This document shows, piece by piece, positions 5,925 to 17,300 of a DNA stretch of 50,331 bases (within the stretch, counting starts at the first letter, position 1; every line of letters begins with the position of its first letter). The notes beneath the pieces are model-generated. The model was not told the origin of the DNA, did not search any database, and worked only from the letters and a program-made list of their open reading frames with translations. Both the position numbers and the translations under genes were made by a program. The DNA is from Treponema sp. GTDB lineage: Bacteria; Spirochaetota; Spirochaetia; Treponematales; Breznakiellaceae. The stretch covers positions 1 through 50,331 of the forward strand of contig WRLP01000021.1 in assembly GCA_009777535.1 (NCBI GenBank), read 5' to 3'.

Positions 5925-6287
5925 AAGTTAATTATCTACCATTAGAAAAAAAAATTCAATCCTTGGTACGGTTGGGAACAGCAGTCTCCAGCAAAAAAGA
6001 GGCTTAATTTACTTCAAAATTCATCACGCAAATAAGCTAAGCCGCCAAGATAGACGCTAATGTGTCAAAATACGCTCTAAGTATGACGTTTTCCTAGTTT
6101 ATCTGATTAATTAATTAAGGCTTTTATTCTTAATTTAATCGGAATTGAAAATACAGGAGATGAAGAATTATTGTTCTTTTGTTTTTTGCTGTACATGATA
6201 CCTTAAAACAAGATCTTACCGAAATGGTTGTCTTTACCTTATAAAAAGTATAAAATGTGTTTACATGATAAAAAGGGAGTGGATAAA
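5925..6287. other. AT-rich intergenic region at the edge of the cyclase island
   Basis: About 360 nt without a convincing gene. It becomes strongly AT-rich from about 5940, in contrast to the proline genes. A short frame, ATG at 6160 with AGGAG just before it, gives only 12 codons and is not called. A clear promoter could not be fixed because many AT-rich hexamers are present. Confidence 0.5.
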
Positions 6288-7190
6288 TTGAGTTTACCTA
6301 AAATTTATGGAGTTTACCTGAATAATTTAAGTTGGTATCAGATAGGTAATCTATATAATGAATGTCTTAAGGAGGGTAGAGCAAAATACAAGATAGAAAG
6401 AATAAATGAAATGGTTGAAAAATTGGATAAATTACCAGAACATGAAATTATTCAACAATATTTGTTTGCAGGAAGAATTTCTGTAAACTGGTATAAATTA
6501 GCCGATAAGGCAGAAAATTCCATTTTGGTTATAAAACAGAGGCTTAATGCTATTTCCCATGATATATTAAAAAAAGGACATTATTTGCACCTTGGCGATG
6601 ATTTTGATTTTGTGCATGCAATTGAAAAACAAAATAAATTGTTTATTACTTTAGGTACTGGAAATTACCGTGATTCAATATCAATTCAAGAATATAAATT
6701 GGTGCAATCACCATCAGAATATTTTTGTACAATCATTATTAGAGAAAAAAATAATATTATTGAAATTCGTGCTAATGAAACACTTAGGCACCACTTATTA
6801 AAAACTGTGGTCGATAAGATTGGAGTAAAAACAGTACCTGGTTTTGGGAAAAAAATAATAACTGAAGAAGCTTTTTTAGCATTTTGGAATGCCATTCCAG
6901 GAGCAGAAATAAAAAGGTATAAAGGAAAAAATTTAGATCCCCAATCAATTACAGAATTACTTGAATTTACTGCAAGACAAGGTGTCGATTATGCCCAAAA
7001 TACAGATGAGTTTATTCGTATGCGGGAAAATTTACAGGATTTGAGCCTGACGTTCATTTTTAACTATAACGACAGTACTTTCCCATTTAGATTCAATTTG
7101 CTTACAGGAAGTCTGTATTTCCCATCAATCGTTTCTGAAGATGCAATAGATTACATCTTTGATATTTATTATAAAACTATAATGGAGTAA
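6288..7190 (+). CDS. unrecognised protein coupled to a nucleotidyl cyclase
   Basis: A protein of about 300 aa that I cannot assign. It is soluble-looking, rich in Lys, Ile and Asn, and lacks a signal peptide, a transmembrane stretch or an obvious TIR, nuclease or protease motif. The N-terminal half is helical and charged; the C-terminal 60 residues have alternating aromatic strands (TFIFNYND, FPFRFNL, SLYFP). The frame is open from a TTG at 6228, but TTG at 6288 is preferred because GGGAG (6275-6279) sits 8 nt upstream; ATG 6255 has no ribosome site. The next gene begins 2 nt after its stop and uses a GGAG inside its last codons, so the two are translationally coupled and may act together. 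Confidence 0.65.
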   Translation: MSLPKIYGVYLNNLSWYQIGNLYNECLKEGRAKYKIERINEMVEKLDKLPEHEIIQQYLFAGRISVNWYKLADKAENSILVIKQRLNAISHDILKKGHYLHLGDDFDFVHAIEKQNKLFITLGTGNYRDSISIQEYKLVQSPSEYFCTIIIREKNNIIEIRANETLRHHLLKTVVDKIGVKTVPGFGKKIITEEAFLAFWNAIPGAEIKRYKGKNLDPQSITELLEFTARQGVDYAQNTDEFIRMRENLQDLSLTFIFNYNDSTFPFRFNLLTGSLYFPSIVSEDAIDYIFDIYYKTIME

Positions 7191-7192
7191 AA

Positions 7193-8164
7193 ATGATAGA
7201 TATCCGTCAATTGTTTTTAGGTGGAGTTGAATTAGATTTACAAACAGCTTATAGAAAAATTGAAAAAAAATCAAATATGAAAATTTCTATTTCAGACGTC
7301 AAAACTGAGCTAGATAAATATGTTTCGGATGGTGTCTTATTGTTAAGATACTCTATAAGAGATCCTTATGAGCTCACGGAACTGGAAACTTTCGACAACC
7401 TTTTGGTTTTAAATAATTATAAACAAAGTAAGAACCATCTTCGAAACGATACAACAGGTAAACAATTTGCCTTTGATGAATGTGTTTTAGTTGAATACTA
7501 CAGACTAGCAAAATCAGAATTTATTTTTCCAGGATTAAACCCTATTATAAGCTCGTTAAAAATTCCATGCTCTATTTTTGGCTGTGATGCAATATCATTT
7601 TCTAAAAAAGACACAGATGATCAAGTTAAAATATATAAGAATTTAATTTCCATACTCGGTGAATGCTTAAGCGAATTGGGAGTTAACCCTAATAATACTA
7701 TTTGTATTCCAAGTGGTGATGGTTATTATATAATATTTTATGAGATAAACGATCCTTTAGTTGTAATTAAATTTTCCCATGCCGTTCAATCAAAAATTAC
7801 TGATAGAGCGTTAGCACTTCCCTTGCGAATTGGTATAGAAACCGGTACTGTGTTTAAGATTATACATAGGAATAATCAATTCAATGCAATTGGACATAGT
7901 TTAAATTCATGTTCGCGTATTATGGGTTTTGGTAAAGAAAAACATATCCTGGTATCGAAAACTTTTTATGAGGCATTTGTAAATCATTCAGAGATGAAAA
8001 ATAATTTTCGTGACTTTGGTGAATATGAGGACAAACATGGTTATAAAATTCATATTTATAATTATTCTAGAGATTCTGTTGGTAATAATGATCCAATCTG
8101 CGGAAGCAGAAACTGCGCCTCAGGGTATTTACTGAATAGCCAGATATATCAGAATGAACGTTAA
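7193..8164 (+). CDS. class III nucleotidyl cyclase-like protein with divergent base-recognition residues
   Basis: A 323-aa protein. Residues about 125-290 match a class III (adenylate/guanylate) cyclase domain. The metal-binding aspartates are D132 in FGCDAISFS and D176 in SGDGYYIIF. LRIGIETGTV is at 211-220, and the transition-state Asn/Arg pair is N238 and R242 in GHSLNSCSRI. The residues that normally choose the base are changed: the Lys of a KxxGD motif is replaced by I172, and the Asp seven residues before N238 by N231. It should therefore be catalytic but not a standard adenylate or guanylate cyclase. The first ~110 residues look like a small helical, possibly winged-helix, domain (SDVKTELDKYVSDGVLL). 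GGAG overlaps the stop of the upstream gene. AT-rich composition suggests horizontal transfer. Substrate and effector are unknown. Confidence 0.8.
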   Translation: MIDIRQLFLGGVELDLQTAYRKIEKKSNMKISISDVKTELDKYVSDGVLLLRYSIRDPYELTELETFDNLLVLNNYKQSKNHLRNDTTGKQFAFDECVLVEYYRLAKSEFIFPGLNPIISSLKIPCSIFGCDAISFSKKDTDDQVKIYKNLISILGECLSELGVNPNNTICIPSGDGYYIIFYEINDPLVVIKFSHAVQSKITDRALALPLRIGIETGTVFKIIHRNNQFNAIGHSLNSCSRIMGFGKEKHILVSKTFYEAFVNHSEMKNNFRDFGEYEDKHGYKIHIYNYSRDSVGNNDPICGSRNCASGYLLNSQIYQNER

Positions 8165-8222
8165 AAATAAAAGATCTTACAGTTCCTTAACGGCTTTTTT
8201 AATTAAATCTAATAGAGGTTTT

Positions 8223-9212
8223 ATGAAAAAATATTTATCATGTCTTTTTATTTTGTCAGCAATTTTATTTTATTTTGTTAATTGTAAACACAGCCAGCCG
8301 ATTGAAATACATCCTCTAAACGATATTTTGAGCTATAATTTAGATTTAAATAAAATAAATTTACCAATTGAAAAAAGAATATTACCTGCACCAGAAATAA
8401 TTATATCATTTTTAAATGAATTTGATAATGTTGATAACTATGCTTCACATGAACTAAGCGATGATGAAAGACTGTTGTTTATGGATTACTATGATTTGCT
8501 CCCGGAAACATTCAAAAATATTATTAATGAAAAAGTTGCAGGTATATATTTTATAGAAAATTTTCTGGGCGGCGGCATGACAATGCCCGCATTTGAAAGT
8601 AATATGAATATGTATATGGTTTTATTCTTAAATCCTGAAATATTAAATACTAATATCACTGAGTGGATAAACTACAGAGATAACTCAATATTTATGGATA
8701 ATAAAAATGAAATAACCTTAACTGTTGAATGTAATACCAATCATTATGCATTATTGACTACATTAGTTCATGAAGCATGCCATATATATGATTATTACAG
8801 TTTTGTTACACCATATACAGACAAAATAGTAATGAATGTCCAAAATACCCAAAATAATTATCCAACCAGTTTTATTCAGGATATTTGGCTTGACTATGAT
8901 CGATCAATTGAATTGTACGACTATAAAAACAGGAGGAATGTATCTTTTTATGATTTAGGTGAAAGAACAGATAAAATATTATCACTGGAATTATTCACCG
9001 CTTTAAGCAAAACGCCATTTACTTCATTATATGGCGCAAAAAACTGGGCTGAAGACTTTGCGGAAACATTTACATGGTATTATCTAAAAAAATATTTTGA
9101 TGTAGATTTTATTACAACGTTAAGTGATAACGAAAATATTTTAATTGTTTATAACCCGAACGAAAACGAATTGGTAAAAAGAAGATATGAATTATTTTTT
9201 GAAATAAAGTAA
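8223..9212 (+). CDS. putative zinc metalloprotease lipoprotein
   Basis: A protein of about 329 aa. The N-terminus MKKYLSCLFILSAILFYFVNC is a lipoprotein signal with a spirochaete-like lipobox (FVNC). HEACH (183-187) is an HExxH zinc motif, and WAEDFAETF (275-283) supplies a likely third Glu ligand. It would sit in the periplasm or at the cell surface. The frame is open from ATG 8154, which overlaps the cyclase end, but ATG 8223 is chosen because it gives the signal peptide and has AGAGG upstream with short spacing. Composition is AT-rich like the two genes before it. Whether it belongs to the cyclase system or only shares the island is unclear. I cannot name the peptidase family. Confidence 0.7.
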   Translation: MKKYLSCLFILSAILFYFVNCKHSQPIEIHPLNDILSYNLDLNKINLPIEKRILPAPEIIISFLNEFDNVDNYASHELSDDERLLFMDYYDLLPETFKNIINEKVAGIYFIENFLGGGMTMPAFESNMNMYMVLFLNPEILNTNITEWINYRDNSIFMDNKNEITLTVECNTNHYALLTTLVHEACHIYDYYSFVTPYTDKIVMNVQNTQNNYPTSFIQDIWLDYDRSIELYDYKNRRNVSFYDLGERTDKILSLELFTALSKTPFTSLYGAKNWAEDFAETFTWYYLKKYFDVDFITTLSDNENILIVYNPNENELVKRRYELFFEIK

Positions 9213-9251: not shown

Positions 9252-10064
9252 TTACTGTATTTTCCCCAAAATGCCCGCCAGTTTTGATTCTTCGCCGTCG
9301 GAAAGTTCACCGGGGAGTATCAGAGGATGGTATGATACGGGCGGAAGCAGAAATCCCGCATCAAGGAAATTGCTAAACAGCAATGCCCATTGCCCGGCGT
9401 CCGGCTTTTCCCGCAGATTCAGATAAATGCCCTGCCGCTGCCAGGGGCTGTTTTTCAGGGCTTTGGCAATGCGGGGGAAATTCGGCCTTACGCGCTGCGG
9501 CGAGGCGAGAAGATCGTGTATGCTCCTGGCAGCGGCCGCAAGCAGTACCGGAGAGAGTATGTCCGCGGCGGGGAGGCCGCATTGAAAATCCGGGGAAATA
9601 GCGAGTACGCAGAGCCCCAGCGGCAGGTTACCGCGCCAGCCCTGGATGCCAGGTAAAACAGGAACGAGGATTGGCGGCGCATTTTCTGTTGCCGCAAACG
9701 GCGAGGCAGGATCCAAAAAGGGGCGCCATAACGCGGCCTCCCCGCTTTTGAGTAACGGCTCCAGAGCAGCGGGAGCTGCAGCGTAGAGCTTAAAACTGCG
9801 GTTCGGGAAAAGCCGGAGCAGGGCTTTTATGAAGCGCCCTTCGAGAAAATGTGGAAGGGGAGCGTATAAGCCCCTGCTTGCGGTGTTTTTCAGTTCACGG
9901 AGCAGGTTGGGCGGCGTGTGTCCCAGTACTGCGCTGCCGTTATTCTGCCAAAGATCTAACAGCCTTTTTCCGCCGCGTGTATAAAGACGGAAACCTCTGG
10001 CGCGCAGTACAGTGGGGACAGTATGTAAAAGATAAAATTCATCTTGTTCGCTTTTTGTTTCCAT
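9252..10064 (-). CDS. truncated class III aminotransferase-like protein, probably non-catalytic
   Basis: A 270-aa protein. The first ~100 residues follow the start of class III aminotransferases: RARGFRLYTRGGKRLLDLW, then GSAVLGHTPPNLLREL. The rest is shortened relative to the usual ~400-450 aa. The expected pyridoxal-phosphate lysine segment and the Asp of the cofactor-binding region are not visible. I infer a degenerate or repurposed PLP-fold protein rather than an active enzyme. It starts 2 nt after the pcrA stop, with AGGG inside the end of pcrA, so it is co-transcribed. The frame is intact over 810 nt, which argues against a recent pseudogene. Confidence 0.65.
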   Translation of the reverse strand: METKSEQDEFYLLHTVPTVLRARGFRLYTRGGKRLLDLWQNNGSAVLGHTPPNLLRELKNTASRGLYAPLPHFLEGRFIKALLRLFPNRSFKLYAAAPAALEPLLKSGEAALWRPFLDPASPFAATENAPPILVPVLPGIQGWRGNLPLGLCVLAISPDFQCGLPAADILSPVLLAAAARSIHDLLASPQRVRPNFPRIAKALKNSPWQRQGIYLNLREKPDAGQWALLFSNFLDAGFLLPPVSYHPLILPGELSDGEESKLAGILGKIQ

Positions 10065-10066
10065 AA

Positions 10067-12298
10067 CTAATAATCCCTGCCTATTTTTGTAATGGCCGAT
10101 CCCTGGTATTCGCTGTGAAAATGCAGTTCCTTGCCTGTTTGAAAATGTACCCGCACAACCGGCCCTTCTTCGCTGTCCGTAACAGCTATCACCTCGCCAT
10201 AACCATGGTCATCATGGTAAAGAGATTCCCCGCGCTTCCAGTCTGCAGCTTTTTCGATTTCGCTGTGTCCGGGGCTGGCTGCGTTTTTCTTTAATGTATT
10301 AAAACCATAAGGAATGCTGCCGGTAATCTGCAGGCTGCCCTTATCAACCTCGTGTAAAAAAAGCGATGGATTTGTTGGTACGGTTCTTCCGTACATTCGC
10401 CGCATTGCGCAGGAAGTAAAATAAAGTTCATTCATCGCCCTTGTTGCTCCTACATAAAAGAGCCGCCTTTCTTCTTCAAGTTCGTCTTCTTTAATATTTT
10501 CCCGTGGAAAGACGCCATGTTCAACTCCGGTCATGATTACATTCTGGAATTCCAGGCCCTTGGTATTGTGAAATGTGATCAGCGTAACAGAATCAACATT
10601 GCCGGTATCGGCAGAGTCGTTTACCAATGAGCGGTCAAGCTCAATGTGTTCAAGGAAATCCTGCAGCCCCTTTTGGCTCAGTGGATACTGGCTTGCCGCA
10701 TTCAAAAGTTCCTGTAAATTGTTGAGTCTTTGGTTTCCTGTAACATCATCCTGCATTTTATGATAATCGGCAATCCCCGAATTTTTTACAAGCATGTATA
10801 CACAATTTGAAAATCCTTCACCGCTTGCAAGCCCTTCCCGGCTTTTATTAGAATCCCTTTTTTTTATTTGCAGTTTCCTAATTTCTTCGTCTGTGGTTTG
10901 TGCGTTTTCGAGTAACGATTTTCCGTCCTCAATCAATTTAATAAAATCATTCAAACCCGCTCTTGCCTTGGGCGCAAGATCAATTCTGCGCCCTGTTTCC
11001 ATCAAGTCATTTTCGTTTGCATAAGCGGCCTCAATTATTTTATCAACGGATGCCGGCCCTACTCCGCGAGCGGGCTTGTTCACTATTCTGCGGAAGGCAA
11101 CTTCGTCGCGCGGGTTTACAAGAAACGACAGCAGGGCAAGGGCGTCTTTTATTTCTTCCCTTTCGTAAAACTTCAGGGAGCCGACAACACGATAGGGGAT
11201 TCCCCTGCGCAGGAATTTGGTTTCAAAACCCAGGGACTGCGCATTGGTTCTGTAAAGGATAGCCCAGTGCGACCATTTAGCCCTGCCCTGCCTTACAGAG
11301 TCTTCGATCTGGCGGGCGCAAAAGGCGGCTTCTTCGTCCTGGTTGGGCAGAAATGCCAGTACCGGCAGTTTTCCGTTTCCGCGCGTTGCGCTTAGGGTTT
11401 TTCCCAGGCGGCCCTGATTGTTGTCCACTACCGAGGATGCGGCTCTTAGAATGGGCTCGGTGGAGCGGTAGTTTTTTTCCAGCCGGATAATTTCTGTGCC
11501 GGAAAAAAGATTCGGAAACTCAAGAATGTTTTTTACCTCGGCGCCGCGGAAACGGTATATTGACTGATCGTCATCGCCCACAACGCAGACATAAGTTGCG
11601 GGGCCGGTAAGTTCCTTTAGCAATTCGAACTGCGCAACATTGGCGTCCTGGTATTCATCAACCAGTATTGCCGAAAAGCGATCGCGGAAACGCTGAGCTG
11701 TTTCAGGGTGGCTGCGCAGAATCTCGACCGGCTTTTTTATCAGATCTCCAAAATCAACATTACCGATCTGCGACATGCGCTCCTCGTACATTGCATAAAT
11801 GCTGTGGAATTTTTTATGGCTGTCGATGAACGAAAGTTTCGGATCATTTGGGCATAGAAAATAATCTTTTGCCCTGGAAATTTTGTAGGCAATTTGTTTT
11901 ATTTCAGCCTTAGTTGAATTTTCCATGAGCGAAGAAAGCAGGGAGCAGACATCATCATCATCATAAATAACAAAACCGGAATCAAGGCCGGCCAGCGGGC
12001 CGTTGCGCCGCAGAAACCATGCCCCAAAGGAATGAAAAGTCCGAAGCATGGCATCGCCGGCGCGATCATCGATCAGCTTTGCCCTCTCCGCCATTTCCCT
12101 GGCGGCCTTGTTTGTAAAAGTAACCGCAAGTATCGAGCGTGGGTCCAGCCCCTGCTCCCTGATGAGCCATGCGATCTTTGTTGTGATTACCCTGGTTTTA
12201 CCCGAGCCCGCGCCGGCAAGGATCAAAAGCGGCTTCCCTGTGTGAAGCACTGCACGTTTCTGCTCAGAGTTGAGAACATCAAGATAGGATTGGCTCAT
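10067..12298 (-). CDS. pcrA: ATP-dependent DNA helicase, UvrD/PcrA/Rep family
   Basis: A superfamily 1A 3'-5' DNA helicase of about 743 aa, acting in repair and replication restart. Visible motifs are the Q-motif region LNSEQKRAV, Walker A AGAGSGKT, motif Ia TFTNKAA, Walker B VDEYQDAN, motif III GDDDQSIYRFRGA, motif IV YRST, and near the end ITFHNTKGLEFQNV and YVGATRA. The start is taken as ATG 12298 (MSQSYLDVL); the frame is open to ATG 12313. Neither start has a ribosome site. A TATTAT box lies 5 nt upstream of ATG 12298, so a leaderless mRNA is possible. It is divergent from the Crp-like gene. Confidence 0.95.
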   Translation of the reverse strand: MSQSYLDVLNSEQKRAVLHTGKPLLILAGAGSGKTRVITTKIAWLIREQGLDPRSILAVTFTNKAAREMAERAKLIDDRAGDAMLRTFHSFGAWFLRRNGPLAGLDSGFVIYDDDDVCSLLSSLMENSTKAEIKQIAYKISRAKDYFLCPNDPKLSFIDSHKKFHSIYAMYEERMSQIGNVDFGDLIKKPVEILRSHPETAQRFRDRFSAILVDEYQDANVAQFELLKELTGPATYVCVVGDDDQSIYRFRGAEVKNILEFPNLFSGTEIIRLEKNYRSTEPILRAASSVVDNNQGRLGKTLSATRGNGKLPVLAFLPNQDEEAAFCARQIEDSVRQGRAKWSHWAILYRTNAQSLGFETKFLRRGIPYRVVGSLKFYEREEIKDALALLSFLVNPRDEVAFRRIVNKPARGVGPASVDKIIEAAYANENDLMETGRRIDLAPKARAGLNDFIKLIEDGKSLLENAQTTDEEIRKLQIKKRDSNKSREGLASGEGFSNCVYMLVKNSGIADYHKMQDDVTGNQRLNNLQELLNAASQYPLSQKGLQDFLEHIELDRSLVNDSADTGNVDSVTLITFHNTKGLEFQNVIMTGVEHGVFPRENIKEDELEEERRLFYVGATRAMNELYFTSCAMRRMYGRTVPTNPSLFLHEVDKGSLQITGSIPYGFNTLKKNAASPGHSEIEKAADWKRGESLYHDDHGYGEVIAVTDSEEGPVVRVHFQTGKELHFHSEYQGSAITKIGRDY

Positions 12299-12302
12299 GA
12301 GG

Positions 12303-12308
12303 TATAAT
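12303..12308 (+). promoter_or_regulatory. putative -10 box for the Crp-like regulator
   Basis: Consensus TATAAT at 12303-12308 on the plus strand, without a good -35. Read on the other strand, the overlapping TATTAT (12309-12304) would serve pcrA. The short divergent region would allow opposed transcription of both genes. Confidence 0.4.
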
Positions 12309-12326
12309 AGCATAGAAAATGGTATT

Positions 12327-12908
12327 ATGGATGGTATGAATAGTGATTTTGAAAGGTTTTTATCAAAACATTCTCCTTTTACAAAAGAACAGATAAGCGA
12401 GATAGCTGAGAGCCTTGATATAAGGGAATATAAAAAAAAGACAGTTATCTTACGGGCTGGCGACTTAGTAACTGAATGCTATCTGATACTCAAAGGCTGT
12501 TTAAGAAGTTACGTTATCAAGGACGGCTTGGAAAAAACAATTGAATTTTATATGGAGGAACAATCTGTGGCGCTTCCGGGTTATGGGAAGCAAATTCCCT
12601 CAGAGTTATTTTTGGAATGTGTGGAAGATACTGTTGCCGTTATAGGTACTCCGGAAATTGAAGCAAAAATGTCCAATGAATTTCCTGAATTAATATCTGC
12701 CTCTCTTAAAATGACAGAAGATGTGATAGATAATTATCAATCTACAATTGTTGATTATAAAATGGATTCTGCTGAAGAACGGTACATCAGATTAACCAAA
12801 GAGAGACCTGGCTTAATACAACGGGTTCCACAATATCAATTGGCAAGTTATTTAGGTGTTCAACCGGAATCATTGAGCCGTATTCGCAGAAGAATAAGCA
12901 AAAAATAA
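12327..12908 (+). CDS. Crp/Fnr-family transcription regulator
   Basis: A protein of about 193 aa with an N-terminal cyclic-nucleotide-binding-like beta-barrel (ILRAGDLVTECYLILKG, then LRSYVIKDGLEKTIEF) and a C-terminal helix-turn-helix (YQLASYLGVQPESLSRIRRR). It lacks the N-terminal cysteine cluster of FNR, so it is unlikely to sense oxygen through Fe-S. The frame is open from ATG 12297, but that lies upstream of the best -10 box; ATG 12327 or 12336 is more likely. No clear ribosome site exists for any of them. It lies upstream of a membrane protein and a flavodoxin on the same strand and may control them. An inverted repeat (12912-12919 and 12934-12941) in the following gap is a candidate operator. 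Confidence 0.88.
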   Translation: MDGMNSDFERFLSKHSPFTKEQISEIAESLDIREYKKKTVILRAGDLVTECYLILKGCLRSYVIKDGLEKTIEFYMEEQSVALPGYGKQIPSELFLECVEDTVAVIGTPEIEAKMSNEFPELISASLKMTEDVIDNYQSTIVDYKMDSAEERYIRLTKERPGLIQRVPQYQLASYLGVQPESLSRIRRRISKK

Positions 12909-12911
12909 AAC

Positions 12912-12941
12912 TTTTCATTTCTTAACCTAAGTCAATGAAAA
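12912..12941 (+). promoter_or_regulatory. inverted repeat upstream of the membrane protein/flavodoxin genes
   Basis: TTTTCATT (12912-12919) and AATGAAAA (12934-12941) form a perfect 8-bp inverted repeat with a 14-nt gap, between the Crp-like gene and its downstream neighbour. It could be a regulator operator or a weak hairpin. Crp-type sites often have two arms separated by a short gap, but the motif differs from TGTGA, so this is only a candidate. Confidence 0.35.
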
Positions 12942-12984
12942 TAAAATTCAAATAAGGCATTATTTTTTATAAGGAGAATAGAAA

Positions 12985-13635
12985 ATGAAAAACTTTCGGA
13001 AAATTGGCGCTTTTTCCGCATTTTATCTTTCTGCGGCATATATTATCGGCATGGTAATATTCATTTTTGCATTTGATTACCTGAATATTGATCCATCCCA
13101 AAAACTCATAGTACTTATTAATAATCAAGCGCTTGCATATTTTACAAATCTAATATTATACATATTCTTTGGTTTTTTTCTTATCATTTTAATTTTATCG
13201 TTATATAACCGTTTTAAGAATAAATCGCCCATAATCATGCAAATATTTGCCGTAATCGGTATTATTTGGGCAGGACTGCTTATTTCAAGCGGATTGGTTG
13301 CAAATGCGGGGATTAATCCAACAGCTGAATTATTCCAAAAAGATCCTGAACAGGCTCAGTTCTTCTGGCTACAAATAGAAACTGTCGCAAATGGTTTATC
13401 CTGTGTAACCGGCGAGATTTTAGGCGGTCTTATGACAATTTTATTAAGTATAGCCGGAATATGCGGGCATTTTTTACGGAAAAGTTTAAATTATTATGGG
13501 GTATTAGTCGGCGGTGTTGGGATAATTACTATTATTCCTGTATTACATAATTTGGGAGGGGTATTTGGAATTACTCAGCTTATATGGTTTATTTGGCTGG
13601 GAGTATTGTTACTTAAATCAAAAGAAGTTGATTAG
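12985..13635 (+). CDS. integral membrane protein, DUF4386-like
   Basis: A 216-aa polytopic protein with about six hydrophobic helices spread over its whole length, no signal cleavage site and short charged loops. The N-terminus KIGAFSAFYLSAAYIIG and the overall topology resemble DUF4386 membrane proteins; that assignment is from memory of the family pattern and is tentative. The start ATG has AAGGAG upstream (TATAAGGAGAATAGAAA). It is followed after 2 nt by a flavodoxin-domain lipoprotein, so the two are coupled. Function unknown; a role linked to flavodoxin at the membrane is an inference from context. Confidence 0.7.
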   Translation: MKNFRKIGAFSAFYLSAAYIIGMVIFIFAFDYLNIDPSQKLIVLINNQALAYFTNLILYIFFGFFLIILILSLYNRFKNKSPIIMQIFAVIGIIWAGLLISSGLVANAGINPTAELFQKDPEQAQFFWLQIETVANGLSCVTGEILGGLMTILLSIAGICGHFLRKSLNYYGVLVGGVGIITIIPVLHNLGGVFGITQLIWFIWLGVLLLKSKEVD

Positions 13636-13637
13636 TA

Positions 13638-14267
13638 ATGGTAAAATTAGTTTTTCGATTAATTGCATGTTTCTTTGTCTTTTTCTTGCTTTTTAGTTGT
13701 GCTGGAAAAATATCAAATAAAACAGAAGAACCATCAGCAATAACATCAGCCAGCCATATTGTAAATAATACCGGACTTGACGGTTTAAGGGAAAATGTAA
13801 TGGATACTCAAAACATAATAATTCTATTTTCACCTAATGGAAGTACAAAAAAAATCGCAGAGGCAATTTCTAATAATATAAACGCTTCAATTTTTAATCT
13901 GGATGGCTCAAAGTCTATGCCAGACGGCATTAATGATTATCATTTAATAGGATTTGGTTCCGGTATTTTTCACGATAAACATCATTCTTTGCTGCTGGAA
14001 TTTGCCGAAAATTTACCGGAAGTTAGACAAAAGAACGCTTTTATTTTTTCTACTTGCGGGGTTTTTACCGAAGAATATATGAATAATAACCATAAAACAT
14101 TAAGAGATATACTTGTAAATAAAGGGTTCTTAATATTGGGAGAATATAGCTGTCCTGGATTTAACAAAAATAGTTTCTTAAAACTTTTTGGAGGAATTAA
14201 TAAAAACAGGCCAAATGCTGATGATATTATAAAGGCAATATCATTTAGTGAAGAATTGTTACAGTGA
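13638..14267 (+). CDS. flavodoxin-like domain carried on a lipoprotein signal
   Basis: A 209-aa protein. MVKLVFRLIACFFVFFLLFSC is a lipoprotein signal with Cys21, followed by a Ser/Thr/Asn-rich linker. Residues about 58-205 are flavodoxin-like: the FMN phosphate loop FSPNGSTKKIAEAI, then DYHLIGFGSGIF, FIFSTCGVF and LGEYSCPGF, as in flavodoxins of the IsdH/FldA-like short type. A flavodoxin outside the cytoplasm would be unusual. A second start is visible: ATG 13800 with AAGGG (13787-13791) 8 nt upstream, which would give a cytoplasmic flavodoxin of 155 aa. The longer start at 13638 has no clear ribosome site but lies 2 nt after the upstream stop. Confidence 0.8.
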   Translation: MVKLVFRLIACFFVFFLLFSCAGKISNKTEEPSAITSASHIVNNTGLDGLRENVMDTQNIIILFSPNGSTKKIAEAISNNINASIFNLDGSKSMPDGINDYHLIGFGSGIFHDKHHSLLLEFAENLPEVRQKNAFIFSTCGVFTEEYMNNNHKTLRDILVNKGFLILGEYSCPGFNKNSFLKLFGGINKNRPNADDIIKAISFSEELLQ

Positions 14268-14273
14268 CACCCA

Positions 14274-14304
14274 AAAAAAGCCCGACATAGCGCCGGGCTT
14301 TTTT
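14274..14304. terminator. bidirectional Rho-independent terminator
   Basis: AAAAAAAGCCCG and CGGGCTTTTTT flank an 8-10-nt loop, giving a GC-capped hairpin with a T-run on either strand. It lies between the flavodoxin stop (14267) and the nifJ stop (14331), so it ends both convergent units. Confidence 0.9.
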
Positions 14305-14330
14305 ATCTTTTCCCTTCTACCTTCTAATTT

Positions 14331-17300
14331 TTAAAATGGTCTGTCCGCCAGGTATTTGTACTCCTTCCATGTCCGCTCGGCCTGGGCCTTTGCCTTGGCA
14401 AGAAGGGCGTCTGCCCTGTCGGGGTTTGCTGCTTTAAGGCTCTTAAAGCGCACTTCCTTATACATAAAGTCTTCCAGGCTTGTAGAGGGTTCCTTGGAAT
14501 CAAGCTGGAAGGGATTCTTTCCTTCGGCTTTAAGTCTCGGATCGTAGCGGTACGTCGGCCACAGGCCGCAGGTTACCACTGCCTTGCCCTGATCCAGGCC
14601 CTTACTCATATCTATGCCGTGGCTGATGCAGTGGGCGTATGCGATAATGATCGACGGGCCGTCGTATGACTCCGCCTCGCGGAAAGCCCTGATGGCCTGG
14701 GCCATGTTTGCTCCAAGAGAAATTTTTGCGACATATACATAGCCGTAACTCATGGCTATTGCGCCAAGGTCCTTCTTGTTAACTTCCTTTCCGGAGAAGG
14801 CAAATTTTGCGATTGCCCCGACCGGGGTGGCCTTGCTCATCTGGCCGCCGGTGTTGGAGTAAACTTCTGTGTCCATAACCAGCAGGTTAACATTTTTGCC
14901 GGAGGCAATTACATGATCGAGCCCGCCGAAGCCAATGTCGTAGGCCCAGCCGTCTCCGCCGAATGCCCACACCGACCGTTTTATAAAGTGATCGGCCAGT
15001 GAGAGCAGCATCTTGGCTGTTGGCTTGCTATCGTTTTTCAAAGCGGCTTTTAATGCATCAACATTTTTTCGCTGTTCTTCGATGGCGCTTTCATCAGCCT
15101 GGGCATTCGCCAATAGCTTGTCTATTATTGCGGCGGCATCGCCTGCAAGCGCGCCTTCGCTTTTTGCTTTTGCCGCCATCTCGCGGGCGTGTACTGCAAG
15201 TTTATCGCATGTAAGCCTGAAGCCCAGTGAGAATTCAGCAGCGTCCTCGAAGAGGCTGTTCGACCACGCCGGTCCGCGGCCGTCGGCGCGCTTGCAATAG
15301 GGCGTGGTTGGCAGGTTGCCGCCGTAAATCGAGGAGCAGCCTGTCGCGTTTGCAATGACAGCCCTGTCGCCAAAGAGCTGTGTCATCAGTTTGATGTAGG
15401 GAGTTTCGCCGCAGCCGCCGCATGCGCCGGAGAATTCAAACAGGGGTCGCTTGTAAGCAAGGGCTTTAGATGTATTAAGTTCGCCTGCTGCAGGGGTTTC
15501 GGGCAGCGACAGGAAGTAATCCCAGACGGCAACCTGCTCTGCGTGGTATTCGGGATCATCAGCGTACGATTTCCAGCTTAGGGCGCAGGGCTTGCTCTGA
15601 TCTTTCGACATTGGGCAGATGTTAAGGCAGGCGCCGCATTCATAGCAGTCTTCGGCGCCGATGACCAGCGCTGCCTTCCGGCCGTCTATTGGTTTGGGTT
15701 TTATTACCGCGGTTTTGAATCCTTTTGGGGCTTTGGCAACATCAGCATCACTTGGATTTTTCATGCGAATACAGGCATGGGCACACACCATTGAACAGTT
15801 GCCGCACTGTATACACAGATCAGGATTCCATACAGGAACACGTTCGGCAACGGAGCGTTTTTCGTATTGGCTAGTTGCGGTCGGGAAGGTTCCGTCTTCC
15901 GGGATTCTGCTTACAGGCAGGGTATCGCCTTCCTGAACTGACATGGTTCCAAGAGTATCCCTGACCCAGTTGTTATTTGCAGTAGCAAAGGGTTTCTTCA
16001 TGTGAATGTTCCCTTCAGTGTTGGCCGGATACTTTACTTCTTCTACCGCATTAATCGATGCATCTACAGTTACAAAATTATTTTCTACAACATCGGAACC
16101 CTTCTTGCCGTAGGTATGTTCGATGTGTTCCTTCATGAGCTTTACCGCTTCGGTTTCCGGCAGTACGCCGGAAATTTTGAAGTAAGCTGCCTGCATAACT
16201 GTGTTGATGCGCGTGCCCATGCCAGTATTCCTGGCAATCTCGGCGGCATTGATCACGTAGAACTTTACTTTCTTATCGATGATCCGCTTTTGCGCTTCTA
16301 CAGGAATTGTTTTCCAAACATCAGAAGCCTTGTAGGGACTGTTAAGAAGGAAGGTTCCTCCGGTCTTCAGTCTTTTCAGCATGTCGTACATTTCCATGTA
16401 GGAGAATTTATGGCAGGCAAGAAAATTCGCCGAGTTAATAAGATACGGACGGCGGATTTTTTTCTTGCCGAAACGCAGGTGTGAAACCGTAAATCCGCCG
16501 GATTTTTTGGAGTCATAAGAAAAATATGCCTGGGCATTAAGCTCCGGTTTTGCTTCGCTGATTATTTTGATCGAGTTTTTATTCGCACCGACTGTGCCGT
16601 CCGCGCCAAGGCCGTAGAACAGGGCTTCGTTCATGCCTTCTTCTTCGATAACAAAATTCTCGTCGTAATCCAGGCTCCTGCCCAAAACATCATCTTTAAT
16701 GCCGATAACAAAGTTCGCAATTTTTTTATCGGACAGATTATCGAAGACTGCTTTGGCCATTGCCGGAGTAAACTCCTTGGAACCAAGACCATATCGTCCG
16801 CCCAGTACCATGGGATAACCCGTGAACGGCGCTTTGCCGTACATTTCGCCAATGGCGGTGCGAACATCTTCGTACAATGGCTCGCCCATTGAGCCTGGCT
16901 CCTTGGTGCGGTCCAAAACTGCGATGGCTTTTACCGTTGCCGGCAGGGCGTTTACAAACAGCTTTGAGTCGAAGGGGCGGAACAACCGCACCTTCACCAT
17001 GCCGACTTTTTCACCTTTTGAAATTAGGTGATCTATGGTTTCCTCGCAGGTGTCCGCACCGGAACCCATGATGATGATCACCTTCTCTGCGTCTTTCGCT
17101 CCGTAGTAATCAAATATTCGATAGGCGCGGCCTGTCAGCTTTGCGTACTTGTCCATTTCCGCCTGAACGATTCCGGCGACTTTTTCGTAATACTTGCTGA
17201 CTCCTTCCCGTCCCTGAAAATATGTATCGGGATTTTGGGCGGTTCCCCGAATGCACGGATTCTCCGGAGACAGACCGCGGCTCCTGTGAGTAGTTACCAA

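Follow-up and report, generated by a model that had tools for sequence, protein, structure and literature searches.

Results

A coupled gene pair in an AT-rich island

The window analysed here is a stretch of 50,331 nucleotides from a Treponema sp. contig (WRLP01000021.1). Its forward strand carries the two genes under study, P0001 and P0002, with the following features.

~6000..9200, no strand: AT-rich segment holding P0001, P0002 and a third gene (~29% GC in a 47% GC window)
6275..6279, +: Shine-Dalgarno GGGAG of P0001, 8 nt 5' of the TTG start at 6288
6288..7190, +: P0001 (component A), a distant, full-length phrog_38742-family protein by phrog_38742 match, profile, hhalign and alignment
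7184..7187, +: Shine-Dalgarno GGAG of P0002, read from the sequence, overlapping the end of the P0001 ORF
7193..8164, +: P0002, a divergent class III nucleotide cyclase with an adaptor-like N-terminal region (PF00211, catalytic residues, spacing)
7193..7567, +: N-terminal region of P0002 (~residues 1-125), a putative degenerate B domain, from suggestive matches only
7568..8092, +: class III catalytic domain of P0002, with Asp132, Ile172, Asp176, Asn231, Asn238 and Arg242 (motif, spacing, PF00211)

The P0001 reading frame runs from its TTG to a TAA stop at 7188-7190, and that of P0002 opens with an ATG at 7193 and ends at 8164. The first-pass annotation had described two coupled genes; the starts, the stops and the position of the cyclase's GGAG within the end of its partner's frame all confirm that both are real. 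Translational coupling from P0001 to P0002 is likely, judged from the sequence.

The GC contents of P0001 and P0002 are 29.8% and 30.8%, compared with ~47% for the window, and neither gene was found in 199 other genomes of the same family. The island is flanked by proB on one side and by a class-III-aminotransferase-like gene on the other, two genes that are not adjacent in relatives. No clean conserved empty site was present in these relatives; as ProB and the gene at 9252-10064 are not neighbours there, the island sits at a synteny breakpoint. The transfer that had been suggested from AT-richness is thus supported by three lines, namely the low GC, the absence from the 199 family genomes and the breakpoint, and P0001-P0002 were probably acquired horizontally.

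The third gene of the island (8223-9212, +), which the earlier reading had passed over, encodes a probable lipoprotein with a signal peptide ending in FVNC and an HExxH zinc-protease motif (HEACH); its product has no Pfam family over the cut-off and no PDB match. A second AT-rich segment (12201-14500, +) holds a Crp-like cNMP-binding regulator (12297-12908), a membrane protein and a flavodoxin-like lipoprotein. The Crp-like protein lies ~4 kb from P0002, which could be coincidence. Within the P0001-P0002 operon itself there is no cNMP receptor.

P0001 belongs to the phrog_38742 family

The product of the upstream gene had been taken for an unknown protein, a description that gives way to a family assignment. 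P0001 matches phrog_38742 over residues 58-199 (E 7.6e-6), it is the best non-self match among 1,265 ORFs to a profile of four phrog_38742 relatives (E 7.7e-6), and hhalign pairs it with the family at E 3.5e-6. The alignment is nearly end-to-end, with a deletion of ~60 residues, and it brings into register LFAGRISVNW of P0001 with LAGKxSVxW of the family, IEIR with IEVR, and FRFNLLTGSLYFPSIVSEDAIDYI with IRVGLTTNSIQFITPATEGVLRYI. By these comparisons P0001 is a distant member of phrog_38742. It presents a SAP-like N-terminus, the conserved (L)AGR.SV.W and IE.R motifs and a C-terminal beta/alpha segment; the N-terminus of the family likewise appears SAP-like, through a weak match to SAP_new25. 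Weak phrog_38742 matches in other Spirochaetota (L014-L017) were rejected, as they proved to be HAD phosphatases, a XerC-like recombinase and another unrelated protein.

P0001 has no transmembrane segment (its best 19-residue mean hydropathy is 0.89) and no Pfam match to a TIR or a cNMP-binding domain (PF00027), in keeping with the earlier statement that the partner has neither TIR nor transmembrane domains.

Relatives of P0001 head an A-B-C cassette

Three strong members of the A family came from a search of 398 genomes belonging to the same phylum as an Oscillospiraceae genome. Two more were found, one on an Aneurinibacillus plasmid with phage genes and the other on a viral contig, for a total of five relatives. 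In all five loci (L098, L099, L100, L101 and L125) the A gene is followed on the same strand directly by B and then by C. B is a protein of ~130 residues with a winged helix and a Cys4 zinc ribbon, and C is a small protein; the two are fused in the Aneurinibacillus locus (L101). Most of these loci belong to prophages or viral contigs; the cassettes of L100, L101 and L125 adjoin phage genes for holin, endolysin or tail proteins. The cassette is uncharacterised, with no described function. It has the look of an independent accessory or defence module that prophages carry. Two of the C proteins that were checked match the PADLOC candidate PDC-M14B weakly. Standalone B also occurs in the early region of Paenibacillus larvae phages (11 records, including L102:4812-5342 and L103), with no A gene nearby.

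A cyclase gene is present in none of the five loci; the A family therefore cannot in general be a cyclic-nucleotide receptor. Our searches of genomes, plasmids, phages and viral contigs gave no second pair of an A gene with a cyclase. Back-translated peptide scans returned no relative of P0002 in genome and viral contigs and none of P0001 in viral contigs, tblastn of plasmids and phages returned no relative either, and a two-motif DNA scan (DAxSF...GDGYY) gave, outside cyclases, chance matches only. The A-family profile found no member in two further phyla, sampled around Bacteroidales and Psychrosphaera with 247 and 200 genomes, in searches run without a positive control.

The B domain is the N-terminus of DUF5939 cyclases

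Pfam DUF5939 (PF19363) matched one B protein below threshold. Against a profile built from the N-termini of DUF5939 alone, the top six of 1,271 sequences are the standalone B proteins, with E-values from 1.3e-7 to 0.037, which identifies B as the same domain that heads the DUF5939 cyclases. DUF5939 is present in 27 of 149 Spirochaetota genomes, it precedes the class III catalytic domain in the Spirochaetota loci that we read, and in three of the loci (L104, L117 and L121) DUF5939 and PF00211 occur in a single protein. As it appears in L104-L123, DUF5939 is not one domain, for it begins with a winged-helix/zinc-ribbon unit common to small phage-borne proteins. A similar cyclase architecture is found on Rhizobium plasmids.

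P0002, directly behind its A gene, also presents an N-terminal region of about the size of B ahead of the cyclase domain. Compared with B, this region gives a weak match, at ranks 5 and 8 among 2,001 shuffles. In a two-block test the best register, at residues 21-58 and 109-123, is the one expected for B, at 32 of 2000 shuffles and 15 of 1083 decoys (p ~0.015). Over both kinds of test (p ~0.003-0.016) the match is suggestive only. A larger profile of DUF5939 plus B does not detect the region (rank 200 of 2,001), PF19363 has no match in P0002 or in its N-terminus at E 10, and the zinc ligands are absent. The N-terminal region of P0002 is probably a degenerate B, a winged helix that would have lost its zinc ligands.

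P0002 is a class III cyclase with a non-canonical base pocket

P0002 passes Pfam PF00211 with 27.3 bits against a cut-off of 21.9. The matched stretch is limited to residues 193-279, so D132 and D176 were assigned from motif and spacing. The two aspartates are 44 residues apart, the base-reading position is 7 residues from N238, and N238 is 4 from R242. The spacing of 44 recurs in every DUF5939 cyclase measured (19 of 19) and in most other cyclases of this genome, and the spacings of 7 and 4 are identical in 18 of 20 DUF5939 cyclases, which is every one in which they could be measured. With the cut-off passed, and with the metal-binding Asp pair and the transition-state Asn and Arg in register, P0002 is by sequence a class III nucleotide cyclase. 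That the catalytic spacing is kept exactly points to an active enzyme.

The residues that had been reported for this protein are all in place: D132, D176, N238 and R242 are kept, and I172 and N231 occupy the base-reading positions. All 27 comparison cyclases have Lys at position 172, where P0002 alone has Ile; position 231 is Asp in 19 of 19 DUF5939 cyclases and Asn in P0002. The genome's other cyclases differ in the motif around the Asp position, so variation at that site alone is not rare; the loss of Lys is. In class III adenylate cyclases ATP is read by a Lys and an Asp; in guanylate cyclases a Glu stands where the Lys would be (PMC4215837). P0002 lacks the pair expected of an ATP-specific enzyme, and its Ile172 fits neither class. 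Ordinary reading of ATP or GTP is thus disfavoured by the predicted pocket.

The genome (2.77 Mb, 92.8% complete) holds nine further PF00211 genes, each scoring far above P0002. Against a catalytic profile of the DUF5939 cyclases P0002 scores 20.6 bits, and against a profile of the genome's other cyclases 14.5 bits. A tree did not place the protein (branch length 7.8-10). Single-sequence AlphaFold models of P0001 and P0002 (pLDDT 41 and 34) were too poor for a structure search.

Discussion

A proposed sensor, adaptor and exchangeable output

We judge it fairly probable that P0001-P0002 are a horizontally acquired version of the phrog_38742 cassette, composed of A and a cyclase headed by a degenerate B, in which the cyclase replaces C as the output. 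P0001 would bind the B-type winged-helix adaptor at the N-terminus of P0002, and would either restrain the cyclase or present the adaptor with a trigger such as foreign nucleic acid or a phage product. On this trigger the output would come from the cyclase domain, and not from a small C effector as in the prophage cassettes. It would be a 3',5'-cyclic nucleotide, and the nucleoside triphosphate used for it is probably recognised by other means than the usual Lys/Asp pair. A pyrimidine nucleotide or relaxed specificity seems likelier for P0002 than ATP or GTP reading. A receptor elsewhere in the cell would then respond to the cyclic nucleotide. The combination of A as sensor or regulator, B as adaptor and an exchangeable output explains why the two genes are coupled, why P0001 has no receptor features and why A genes also occur where there is no cyclase. 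A role in defence is plausible by analogy with the phage setting of the relatives.

Comparison with the two closest architectures delimits this proposal. As in the Bacillota prophage cassettes (L098-L101) and in L125, A stands in a mobile setting, here directly ahead of a putative winged-helix adaptor. Unlike them, P0001 is shorter and only ~20-24% identical, the putative B of P0002 lacks the zinc ligands and forms one protein with a cyclase, and there is no C gene at the locus. With the DUF5939 class III adenylate cyclases of Spirochaetota, P0002 shares the catalytic domain and its spacing, and ahead of it a region that is probably of the winged-helix type; the members that we read differ in keeping the Lys, the Asp and the zinc ribbon, and their fetched flanks hold no A gene.

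Alternative readings of the pair

The resemblance that had been drawn to the anti-phage Pycsar systems deserves scrutiny, as a divergent class III cyclase, a two-gene operon and non-canonical base-reading residues are common to both, and PycC enzymes also depart from the canonical pair (PMC11224242). In such a system phage infection would lead P0002 to make cUMP or cCMP, and P0001 would act as a new type of effector for cyclic pyrimidines. The best PADLOC PycC model does match P0002, with 14 bits, but ordinary class III cyclase controls reach ~42-110 bits on these models, so the match is background. The pocket residues of P0002 match no PycC clade (PMC11224242). Two positions before the first metal Asp it has Gly130, where EaPycC and AnPycC have a bulky residue; four before the second Asp, Ile172 replaces the Arg of EaPycC; and two before it, Ser174 replaces Gln in EaPycC and Lys in AnPycC. 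In favour of the Pycsar-like reading, Tyr179, three positions after the second Asp, stands at the place of Phe109 in the clade D enzyme AnPycC. P0001 for its part is not the CNBD-TIR or CNBD-TM protein of a PycTIR or PycTM partner, having neither CNBD nor TIR nor transmembrane segment, and its homologues stand in five of five loci that lack a cyclase. Membership in Pycsar is not supported by these comparisons, and we regard the Pycsar-like reading as quite unlikely. Of the first-pass annotation's proposal, then, the module of two genes, one of them a divergent class III cyclase, is supported, as is its probable horizontal origin; its partner as a protein without a family or as a Pycsar-like effector is not.

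P0002 could also be a drifted form of an ordinary, DUF5939-like housekeeping adenylate cyclase, and P0001 a neighbour that has nothing to do with it. The phylum commonly has DUF5939 cyclases, and P0002 does score slightly higher against their catalytic profile than against the one for the other cyclases of its genome. We hold this to be unlikely, given the very long branch, the loss of both Lys and Asp, the placement in an AT-rich island absent from relatives and the tight coupling to a gene whose family elsewhere precedes the same adaptor domain. The same extreme divergence, the loss of both base-reading residues and the partial Pfam match would fit a catalytically dead P0002 that is part of an A-B complex, in which it would bind nucleotides or have a structural role; against this stands the retention, at invariant spacing, of both metal aspartates and of the transition-state Asn and Arg, and we rate it the least likely of the readings weighed here.

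Implications for DUF5939 and phrog_38742

If the preferred reading of a phrog_38742 cassette with a cyclase as output is correct, the pair may, more tentatively, represent an undescribed modular sensing system, in which a phrog_38742 sensor and a B adaptor are wired to C in prophages and to a cyclase of non-canonical nucleotides here. Such a system would be a type of signalling-based defence apart from Pycsar and CBASS. Through the shared winged-helix/zinc-ribbon adaptor, a cassette that is uncharacterised and often carried by prophages is linked to spirochaete class III cyclases, which gives both Pfam DUF5939 and phrog_38742 a testable role. P0002 itself becomes a candidate, outside Pycsar, for an enzyme whose cyclic-nucleotide product is neither cAMP nor cGMP.
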